Assembly (NCBI RefSeq): GCF_001422545.1
Contig: NZ_LMLE01000009.1
Span: forward strand, 248,001-312,000
DNA length: 64,000 nt
Reading direction: 5' to 3'
DNA from: Pedobacter sp. Leaf41
GTDB lineage: Bacteria; Bacteroidota; Bacteroidia; Sphingobacteriales; Sphingobacteriaceae
The position numbers were made by a program, and so were the translations under genes. Positions 45,057 through 47,454 of this stretch are shown piece after piece; position 1 is the first letter of the stretch, and every line of letters starts with the position of its first letter. The notes under the pieces were generated by a model that had not been told where the DNA came from, ran no database searches, and was given only the letters and a program-made list of their open reading frames with translations.

Positions 45057-46022
45057 TTAATCTTTGTTTTTGAGTGTTTTGAGTACACTAAGCACCCAGC
45101 CTTTGCCCCATTCTCCAATTTGATCATCACTCCATAAAAAAGGATAAAAAATTCGTTTTTGAAAACGCGGAGGCAAATATTTCTGCCAGTTGGTACCGCC
45201 GGTTGCGGCTACATCAATCGGATCTTTTTCTAAATAACGCACTGCTGATTTATAGTGCGACAATGGCCACTTTACATTGACATATAAATCGAGCTTACGC
45301 AATTCTTCTGCAAGCGCAGAAACATCAGCACCATTTGCTGACAGCTGATGATACAAAGCCGAGAAATTTGTAAGTGATCTATTTTTAGCCAGCTGTAAAA
45401 ACTGAGCGGCATATTTTTTAATAAATTGCTTTAATGTTAAAGTTTGCTTACCCGATGACAACTCAGTAGCACCAAACTTCCAATAAATATGTTCGAACTG
45501 TTCTTCGATAGTAGCAGTGCTTAATTCTTCGCGTTTACTTTTATCAACCAAACGAATAAAATCAGTTGCACAAATCTCAATCATTCGATATTGCCCGGAT
45601 TGAAAACCGCTAGCAGGCAATAATGACATTCTGAACTTCAAAAATTGTTCTTTCTCCATGCCATCCACCATCACCTCGAAAGAAGTAGTCAATGCATTAA
45701 AATAAGCATTAATTCTTTTAACACGAGCAGTAAAAAATTCGACAGTTAAATTTTCATGTTCAGCAATTTGCCTGCATTCATGCAAGGCCAGCTTAAAATA
45801 TAACTCAGTAATTTGATGGTACATGATGAAAATCTCTTCATCAGGAAACGGCGTTTTTGGACTTTGTAAACTTAGCAGCGTATCCAAATGGATGTAATCC
45901 CAATAGGTGAGAAAATCGGCATATAGCAACCCATCCAGGTAAGAAGCCATATCCTGCCCCATGGCTGTATATTTTTCTTGTAGCTGATGAAGTTTATCTT
46001 TTATTTCAGGTGTAAAATCCAT
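45057..46022 (-). CDS. Tryptophan 2,3-dioxygenase family protein
   Basis: Heme enzyme that opens the indole ring of tryptophan. The 321-residue protein has the distal segment IMYHQITELYFKLALHE, the PASGFQSGQYRMIE substrate block, and the proximal region SHYKSAVRYL with TGGTNWQKYLPP near the end. Length is somewhat above the bacterial average (about 280). No kynurenine-pathway partners are beside it, so its metabolic role is not shown. It is divergent from the fluoride antiporter. Confidence 0.9.
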   Translation of the reverse strand: MDFTPEIKDKLHQLQEKYTAMGQDMASYLDGLLYADFLTYWDYIHLDTLLSLQSPKTPFPDEEIFIMYHQITELYFKLALHECRQIAEHENLTVEFFTARVKRINAYFNALTTSFEVMVDGMEKEQFLKFRMSLLPASGFQSGQYRMIEICATDFIRLVDKSKREELSTATIEEQFEHIYWKFGATELSSGKQTLTLKQFIKKYAAQFLQLAKNRSLTNFSALYHQLSANGADVSALAEELRKLDLYVNVKWPLSHYKSAVRYLEKDPIDVAATGGTNWQKYLPPRFQKRIFYPFLWSDDQIGEWGKGWVLSVLKTLKNKD

Positions 46023-46057
46023 TATTCTAAGTTAGCTTTACAAAGGTGTTAAAGATT

Positions 46058-46088
46058 TTGGAAGAAATTGCTAAAATTTATACATTTG
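46058..46088 (+). promoter_or_regulatory. Promoter of the fluoride antiporter
   Basis: TTG (46058-46060) and TACATTTG (46081-46088) are 20 bases apart. The expected start at about 46093-46096 is exactly at the first base pair of the riboswitch. Confidence 0.75.
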
Positions 46089-46093
46089 AACAA

Positions 46094-46142
46094 TGGCGAT
46101 GGGGTACCGCCAAAACCGCCAAACAGGCTGATGACTCCTACA
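46094..46142 (+). ncRNA. Fluoride riboswitch (crcB motif)
   Basis: The sequence follows the fluoride aptamer: P1 TGGCG/CGCCA (46094-46098 with 46108-46112), hairpin P3 GCC/GGC (46118-46120 with 46126-46128) with a 5-base loop, and the highly conserved tail CTGATGACTCCTAC. The pseudoknot GGGGT (46101-46105) with ACTCC (46134-46138) also forms, with one G-U pair. It is in the leader of a CLC-type antiporter gene, a known target of this riboswitch class. No T-run terminator lies between it and the ATG, so control is probably at translation (inference). Confidence 0.92.
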
Positions 46143-46164
46143 ATTTTATTTAAATTGAATTCTA

Positions 46165-47454
46165 ATGCCTGTTAAAAAACCAACAGAAGCATTCCTTCTG
46201 TCTATCAATTCCTTTATTAAAAAGGATTTTGGAGTAGTATTATTGAGCACTTCAAAATGGCTTTTAATAGCAGCTCTAATTGGTGCAATAGTTGGCTCTG
46301 CATCTGCCCTATTTTTAGTATCCTTAAATTGGGCAACGAATTTCAGAGAAAGCCACCTTTGGATCATTTCATTTTTACCAGTTGCAGGTCTTTTAATTGG
46401 CTTAGCATATCATTATTGGGGCAAGGATGTTGTTAAAGGAAACAATCTTTTAATTGAAGAATTACAGTCACCCAAAAAGGTAATTCCATTAATTATGGCA
46501 CCATTAATTTTTGCCGGAACGATTATTACTCATTTATTTGGAGGATCGGCAGGAAGAGAAGGAACTGCTGTACAAATTGGAGGTGCTTTTGCCGATCAGT
46601 TTACCAAGCTATTTAAGTTAAAGCCACGCGACAGAAAAATTATTCTCATCTGCGGAATTAGTGCTGGCTTTGCGTCGGTATTCGGGACGCCATTAGCAGG
46701 TGCAATTTTCGGCCTAGAGGTTTTCGTGGTTGGTAGTTTAGTGTACACTGCAATTTTGCCTTCGTTTTTAGCCGCTATAATTGCCGATTATGCATGCAAA
46801 GCTTGGGGAGTTGGCCACACTCATTATTCCATTGGTGTTGTGCCACAAATGGATGCCATTAATCTGTTACTATCGTTGGGTGTTGGAATTGTTTTTGGCT
46901 TAGTGGCCAGATCTTTCTCCGCCTTAAACCATGGCTTTTCTAACTTGTTCAGTAAAATAAAGTATCCGCCTTTAAGGCCAGTATTTGGTGGGTTGACTTT
47001 AATTGTCATTATCTATTTCTTGGATACTACAAGATATATAGGATTAGGAATTCCCGTAATTTCTGAATCATTTACGCAACAGGAACCTTATTATACGTTT
47101 GCCATCAAACTTTTTTTAACGGCATTAACCTTAGGTTGTGGCTTTAAAGGTGGAGAAGTAACCCCATTATTTTTCATTGGCGCAACATTAGGTAGTTTCT
47201 TGAGTGTTTTTATTCCATTACCTATCGGATTATTAGCTGGAATAGGTTTCGTCGCCGTCTTCTCTGGCGCAGCAAATACACCATTGGCTTGTATTTTTAT
47301 GGGAGTAGAATTGTTTGGTGTAGCATCTGGAATATACATTGCTCTTGCTTGCGTTGTAGCCTATCTATTTTCCGGGCATACTGGCATCTATCGTTCGCAA
47401 GCTATTGGTAGCCCAAAACATTTGTTGTTAAAAAGACATCAGTTTTTGAGGTAA
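46165..47454 (+). CDS. CLC-F type fluoride/proton antiporter
   Basis: A 429-residue CLC membrane protein. Chloride-type CLCs have GSGIP, GREGP and GxFxP. Here the equivalents are GNNLL (residues 92-96), GREGT (130-134) and GGEVTP (329-334); GNN- or GM-type first motifs and GREGT/GREGV belong, as I recall, to the fluoride-exporting CLC-F branch. The gating glutamate (E132) is kept. A fluoride riboswitch precedes the gene. It would expel fluoride in exchange for protons and so protect enolase and pyrophosphatase. Confidence 0.93.
   Translation: MPVKKPTEAFLLSINSFIKKDFGVVLLSTSKWLLIAALIGAIVGSASALFLVSLNWATNFRESHLWIISFLPVAGLLIGLAYHYWGKDVVKGNNLLIEELQSPKKVIPLIMAPLIFAGTIITHLFGGSAGREGTAVQIGGAFADQFTKLFKLKPRDRKIILICGISAGFASVFGTPLAGAIFGLEVFVVGSLVYTAILPSFLAAIIADYACKAWGVGHTHYSIGVVPQMDAINLLLSLGVGIVFGLVARSFSALNHGFSNLFSKIKYPPLRPVFGGLTLIVIIYFLDTTRYIGLGIPVISESFTQQEPYYTFAIKLFLTALTLGCGFKGGEVTPLFFIGATLGSFLSVFIPLPIGLLAGIGFVAVFSGAANTPLACIFMGVELFGVASGIYIALACVVAYLFSGHTGIYRSQAIGSPKHLLLKRHQFLR

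Follow-up and report, generated by a model that had tools for sequence, protein, structure and literature searches.

A fluoride aptamer and the exporter gene that it precedes, located in a 64,000-nt stretch of the genome of Pedobacter sp. Leaf41 (positions 248,001-312,000 of contig NZ_LMLE01000009.1; hereafter the window), probably form a translational ON riboswitch that operates without a Shine-Dalgarno site, the ribosome-binding site of most bacteria: we propose, with a rough probability of 0.7 and on the basis of sequence comparison and predicted folds, that the fluoride-stabilized P3 stem and pseudoknot free the start codon of a CLC-F exporter (Table 1). In the predicted ligand-free fold the start region is paired with a strand of the aptamer, and this pairing is conserved, as expected of a start-codon-sequestering switch. 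We also lean, somewhat beyond even odds, towards a fuller reading in which the coding sequence itself is the expression platform. Under this reading, the 3′ strand of P3 would capture the G of the AUG and codons 2 and 3 with the P3 loop as a toehold, P1 would catch the freed 5′ strand of P3, and a hairpin at codons 7-13, which covaries, would complete a composite element, by which the ion gates a ribosome that does without a Shine-Dalgarno site. The aptamer and the exporter are ordinary parts, and what is new is the expression platform: no account of a start-codon-capturing fluoride riboswitch platform was found among the listed matches in the open-licence literature, and nothing was found there on a Pedobacter fluoride riboswitch or on a CLC-F antiporter with a riboswitch. 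According to the accessible part of PMC6847099, Bacteroidota mRNAs naturally lack Shine-Dalgarno sites, so that what a translational riboswitch would hide in these bacteria is a genuine question. The unit offers a concrete candidate answer, namely the start codon with codons 2 and 3, for which 50 orthologs serve as natural replicates and related lineages choose other strands; it also looks as if the riboswitch imposes codon choice on its gene.

Table 1. Features of the predicted fluoride-response unit, in window coordinates.
Feature	Position	Strand	Basis
-33 element TTTG	46057-46060	+	Sequence; Bacteroidota consensus (PMC6847099, accessible part)
-7 element TACATTTG (TAnnTTTG)	46081-46088	+	Sequence; Bacteroidota consensus (PMC6847099, accessible part)
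Fluoride aptamer, Rfam RF01734	46086-46147	+	Model 1-64 of 64 (full length), 59.8 bits against a gathering score of 34, E = 4.4e-14 (Rfam scan, whole window)
Aptamer core, 47 nt	46095-46141	+	RF01734 match; pairings read from sequence
P1, GGCG/CGCC	46095-46098 / 46108-46111	+	Sequence reading
Pseudoknot, GGGGT/ACTCC	46101-46105 / 46134-46138	+	Sequence reading; includes one G·U
P3, GCC/GGC	46118-46120 / 46126-46128	+	Sequence reading
Putative anti-start strand AACAGGC (3′ part of P3 loop and P3 3′ strand)	46122-46128	+	Ortholog conservation; predicted folds
Leader hairpin CAAUUU-UAUUU-AAAUUG, between aptamer and start	46141-46157	+	Pattern in 50/50 orthologs
Start codon ATG, its G within the predicted anti-start helix	46165-46167	+	Sequence; orthologs; predicted folds
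Putative target strand GCCUGUU: last base of AUG with codons 2 (CCU) and 3 (GUU)	46167-46173	+	Ortholog and codon conservation
Coding hairpin ACAGAAG/CUUCUGU, codons 7-13, +19 to +37 (A of AUG = +1)	46183-46189 / 46195-46201	+	Covariation; synonymous-recode test
Predicted CLC-F-type fluoride/proton antiporter, 429 aa	46165-47454	+	PF00654, 250 bits; 6d0j, E = 1.4e-65; tree

By its score and by its P1, P3 and pseudoknot, the element is an RF01734-class fluoride riboswitch for which binding of fluoride and Mg2+ is predicted. The covariance-model match thus bears out the aptamer that the first-pass annotation had read from the letters with all of its pairings, including the pseudoknot; the core is as compact as claimed there, at 47 rather than about 49 nt. 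The strands of P1, P3 and the pseudoknot are invariant in the 50 orthologs, save for G/A at a single pseudoknot position. Matches to RF01734 at E ≤ 0.001 occur in 254 of 399 genomes of the same family, as well as in 55 of 395 sampled across the phylum, and the pair of aptamer and CLC-F is hence by itself textbook and common. The host genome (4.78 Mb in 13 contigs) has a second fluoride riboswitch (49.1 bits) upstream of enolase. A different structured RNA in the window, Flavo-1 (RF01705; 28811-28881, plus strand; 45 bits with a gathering score of 42), sits between two minus-strand genes coding for an acyl-CoA dehydrogenase and an LPG_synthase_TM membrane protein.

The exporter has as its closest PDB match the CLC-type fluoride/proton antiporter 6d0j, the best ClcA entry reaching an E-value of just 5.2e-8. 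It displays GNNLL, GREGT and GGEVTPLF where ClcA has GSGIP, GREGP and GGIFAP; the first two of these changes (GNN.. for GSGIP and GREGT for GREGP), which we take to be marks of CLC-F, had already led the first-pass annotation to the fluoride-export branch. In a 20-row tree the window protein groups with 6d0j and other CLC-F-like rows, with a 100/99 split from Escherichia coli ClcA and L005, the third CLC encoded by the host genome, although the long branches of ClcA, L005 and 6d0j leave the exact place of 6d0j unsure. From its sequence, the product is of the CLC-F type, nearer to CLC-F than to the chloride CLCs, and fluoride/proton exchange is its predicted activity: it has the GREG(T/V), GGEVTPLF and G(N/M)NL motifs in common with 6d0j and differs from it in that its transport is a prediction. 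A second CLC-F relative of the host genome, 48% identical, is encoded a few kb from the enolase-side riboswitch.

All 50 orthologs carry a promoter pair, with TTTTG 17-23 nt upstream of TAnnTTTG. The Bacteroidota promoter consensus given in the accessible part of PMC6847099 is TTTG / TANNTTTG, with transcription starting 4-5 nt past the -7 element. A sigma-70 promoter was rejected, since the plus-strand scan for such promoters was empty and the Bacteroidota-type elements fit instead; the consensus promoter claimed earlier therefore stands as one of the Bacteroidota type and falls as one of the sigma-70 type. By the published spacing, the predicted start lies at about 46093-46094, which gives a leader of 71-72 nt and places the start 1-2 nt ahead of P1, and not on the first aptamer base pair as had been supposed.

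The putative expression platform rests on a 7-bp complementarity between AACAGGC in the aptamer and GCCUGUU at the start of the gene. A protein search of 145 genomes of the same genus gave matches in 130 and, among the matches listed, 50 orthologs with at least 75% identity, the next one having 62%. All 50 preserve [AG]ACAGGC, the leader hairpin, the promoter and the gene start ATGCCTGTT, and these counts are unbiased in that a pattern requiring ATGCC, applied to 50 loci picked by protein identity, missed none. The leader hairpin is paired in 99.6% of cells across the orthologs, with a single G·U/A-U change and a loop of variable length, and the P3 loop is variable on its 5′ side and fixed at its 3′ end as [AG]ACA in 50 of 50 distinct leaders. 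A pattern scan for the unit in named genomes, with ACAGGC and ATGCCTGT required, returned 40 stretches, 39 from Pedobacter and one from a Sphingobacteriaceae MAG. In the gene, codon 2 is CCT and codon 3 is GTT in each of 50 distinct coding sequences, and these are the sole uniform codons among 101 fourfold columns with a conserved amino acid, in a set that was found with the ATGCC-requiring pattern and comes in part from the scan that requires ACAGGC and ATGCCTGT (the P3-loop set stems partly from the same loci). The other conserved Pro and Val columns of the gene reach at most 70% and 86% uniformity. In three neighbor genes (31, 28, and 25 genomes), uniform fourfold columns number 1/60, 0/87, and 1/105, with none within the first 15 codons, and one of these genes likewise starts Met-Pro with its codon 2 just 70% uniform.

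It is improbable, in our estimate, that CCT and GTT are fixed for translation start or protein function only and that the aptamer complementarity is a coincidence. Codons near starts are often special, and codon 4, which lies outside the helix, is nearly fixed as well (AAA in 49 of 50 genes, AAC in the remaining one), so that part of the conservation of the start region has another cause. Moreover, in the alignment of the 50 ortholog leaders, which form one clade, the two strands of the anti-start helix vary only by A/G at the first pair (A-U in 38 and G·U in 4 of 42 distinct rows), with no compensatory double change; hence, covariation neither proves nor refutes the helix. Against coincidence, however, the two uniform columns among the 101 are precisely the paired codons, the neighbor genes show no such uniformity near their starts, and the P3 loop, which is noncoding, is fixed in its 3′ half too. 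Further, the matches listed include 19 more CLC-F genes from the genus, 51-61% identical, and none of them begins with ATGCCTGTT; three have an Rfam fluoride aptamer in the fetched stretch and 16 have none at the gathering score. The relatives without an aptamer at that score are L240-L248, L252, L254-L258, and also L253, where an apparent aptamer end adjoins a low-complexity contig end. On balance, the target strand appears to be conserved at the RNA level, beyond the needs of the protein.

Predicted folds point in the same direction, with energies that were computed for RNA free of pseudoknot, Mg2+, fluoride and co-transcriptional order. The best fold of 46092-46185 is the competing structure and not the aptamer (-21.2 kcal/mol, z = -2.1, equaled by 6 of 200 shuffles); in it the 5′ strand of P1 pairs with the 5′ strand of P3, AACAGGC pairs with GCCUGUU, and the leader hairpin stands in between. 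The anti-start helix and P3 are mutually exclusive. With short leaders, the helix (at least 6 of 7 pairs) is present in the unconstrained best fold of all 50 orthologs and the strand swap between P1 and P3 in that of 40, being missing in 10; forcing P1 and P3 costs 3.6-9.3 kcal/mol (mean 6.1, pseudoknot energy excluded). Under this constraint the G of the AUG goes from an unpaired probability of 0.00 to one of 0.86, and the stretch spanning the AUG and codons 2 and 3 from 0.22 to 0.60. When 60 nt of coding sequence are added, the helix is kept in 48 of the 50 and the latter value rises from 0.23 to 0.61; the AUG alone moves merely from a mean of 0.62 in the free ensemble to 0.76 in the forced ON state because the OFF fold places its A and U in an internal loop. 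As these two bases are largely unpaired in the free ensemble, the effect would rest on the G, codons 2 and 3, and the flanking helices.

We accordingly envisage a fluoride-shifted balance with translation as the regulated step. In the absence of fluoride, the nascent start region would invade P3: its UGUU would first contact RACA, the half of the P3 loop that would serve as a toehold, and its GCC would then displace the 5′ strand of P3, which can re-pair with the 5′ strand of P1. The start codon would thereby be enclosed in a helix, with the aptamer dismantled. Fluoride and Mg2+ would lock P1, P3 and the pseudoknot such that the AUG remains single-stranded, and a ribosome with no Shine-Dalgarno site to use could then initiate, perhaps aided by the coding hairpin at +19. 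Given the complementarity of the anti-start strand to the start codon and codons 2 and 3, fluoride probably activates the gene by releasing its start codon. A platform that hides a Shine-Dalgarno site was rejected, as neither GGA nor AGG occurs in the 23 nt upstream of the AUG (46142-46164). The comparison thereby supports the earlier guess at an unusual translational platform without a Shine-Dalgarno site and adds its likely means, the pairing of the P3 loop and 3′ strand with the start region. In Flavobacterium johnsoniae, structure around the start codon tunes initiation in part (PMC6847099, accessible part).

Complementarity between aptamer and gene start extends to other Bacteroidota fluoride leaders, as seen in a swap test on 136 of 167 units reduced to 48 leader clusters of the phylum. 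The test excluded units that lacked a called ORF or had a start fewer than 8 or more than 70 nt away and, by hand, L168, L169, L080, and L083 (two weak matches, one repeat fetch of one place, and L080 without good ground); ten start codons, including that of L110, were set by hand. The clusters' own aptamers and starts are more complementary to each other than swapped partners are (p = 4e-8, uncorrected for relatedness among clusters), with 14 of 48 clusters in the best 5% and seven no better than half of the swaps, and the test should be conservative because swapped partners often share the complement of the conserved pseudoknot strand. Chance complementarity is thus rejected overall, yet only weakly for the window leader alone, whose own rank of 0.13 and 0.30 in two runs is unexceptional and counts on the side of coincidence. 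The best contiguous stem lies upstream of the AUG in 39 clusters, overlaps it in seven and lies downstream in two; most often, in 30 of 48 by a count from the table, it is the 3′ strand of the pseudoknot that pairs ahead of the AUG, as with CCUACAAA/UUUGUAGG at the eight bases preceding the AUG of L143. The window clade resembles these leaders in having an aptamer strand complementary to the start region and differs from most of them in using the P3 strand, and into the gene, instead of the pseudoknot strand upstream of it. In L076 and L110, two leaders from other families whose genes were judged crcB-like by eye, the pseudoknot strand falls on the UG of the AUG and on codons 2 and 3, and other Bacteroidota families may thus have reached the same end by another aptamer strand (the L110 start being one of those set by hand). 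In L077 and L081 the AUG-overlapping stem draws on other parts of the aptamer; in L103 and L140 it is doubtful, as a pairing of the more usual kind can be read upstream.

Control of transcription, in which fluoride prevents intrinsic or Rho-dependent termination in the leader, has the best-studied fluoride riboswitches in its favor, as these use terminators, and the termination assay described in the accessible part of PMC13273304 scored 323 of 1901 variants as functional. We deem it quite unlikely here: the plus strand of 45950-46400 contains no terminator-like site, the single one found being on the minus strand, and the conserved pairing extends over codons 2 and 3. A terminator platform was rejected for the want of an intrinsic terminator on the plus strand between aptamer and gene, which agrees with the absence of a terminator ahead of the ATG noted at first pass. 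The RF01734 terminator platforms of Bacillus cereus and Thermotoga petrophila share with the window unit the aptamer and the recruitment of an aptamer strand to a competing helix in the ligand-free state; that helix is a terminator in them, whereas here it would comprise the start codon and codons 2 and 3, with P3 as the exchanged element and no terminator. The accessible part of PMC13273304 reports exchange of the pseudoknot strand with terminators, shown by covariation, and notes functional variants extending through P3; it holds no mention of a captured start codon. It also names the fluoride riboswitches of Pseudomonas syringae and Burkholderia pseudomallei as translational controls. The window unit resembles these two in its inferred translational control and differs in having no Shine-Dalgarno site and in its predicted pairing at and past the AUG. 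The P. syringae riboswitch, at least, hides a Shine-Dalgarno site.

The hairpin at codons 7-13 has covariation of its own. In the 41 distinct segments of the 50 genes, five of its seven pairs are changed on both sides, which 5 of 500 shuffles match, and 11 cells carry two-sided changes, which none of the 500 reaches, although related sequences can beat shuffles without any structure; an initial count took 34 of the 41 segments, the seven left out all having the consensus stem, and was repeated with all 41. Slid registers give fewer two-sided pairs and lower scores, the +1 register still having 10 cells. Compared with synonymous recodes, the hairpin is the top outlier of 27 positions (mean Z = -1.86; the next, which overlaps it, -0.70), and gene by gene it is within the lowest 5% of its own recodes in 20 of 50. 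The mean Z at +13 to +45 is 0.56, -0.63, and -0.04 in the three neighbor genes and 0.47 in 59 other riboswitch-linked CLC-F genes. In the window the hairpin has a predicted energy of -7.0 kcal/mol and reads terminator-like on the minus strand. It may act as a START-like aid ahead of the initiating ribosome, as a guard against pairing of the target strand with the copy of AACAG in codons 6-8, or as the terminator of an antisense RNA. The START (structure-assisted translation) proposal places coding hairpins in a window of +16 to +65 (PMC7664666, accessible part); the stable hairpin of the window gene is similar in lying beyond +16, the stability threshold of that paper not being the yardstick, and differs in that the START abstract draws no tie to riboswitches and in that its own effect on initiation is hypothetical. 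That this hairpin is the main device, positioning the ribosome as in START or terminating an antisense RNA on the other strand, fits its two-sided covariation, its place at +19 and its minus-strand reading but is very unlikely, because without contact to the aptamer it cannot account for the fixed codons 2 and 3 or the fixed P3 loop, and the wobble count (21 G·T vs 7 A·C cells, with 27.8 and 12.6 expected under independence, in the 34 of 41 distinct segments) does not separate the strands.

Some fluoride leaders bear on the calling of starts. L072, L073, L074, L142, and L144 contain GUAGGUG or GCAGGUG, in which the GUG that ends the competing helix opens a frame of 138-483 aa; the true start in these five may be this GUG and not the later ATG. 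At the second riboswitch locus of the host genome, outside the window (L002; G000:C6:436138-439203), CCUACAAUA is able to pair with UAUUGUAGG, and the GUG closing the UAUUGUAGG stretch starts a frame of 114 codons, the stop of which shares the bases ATGA with the start of enolase; possibly it is a leader ORF to which enolase is coupled.
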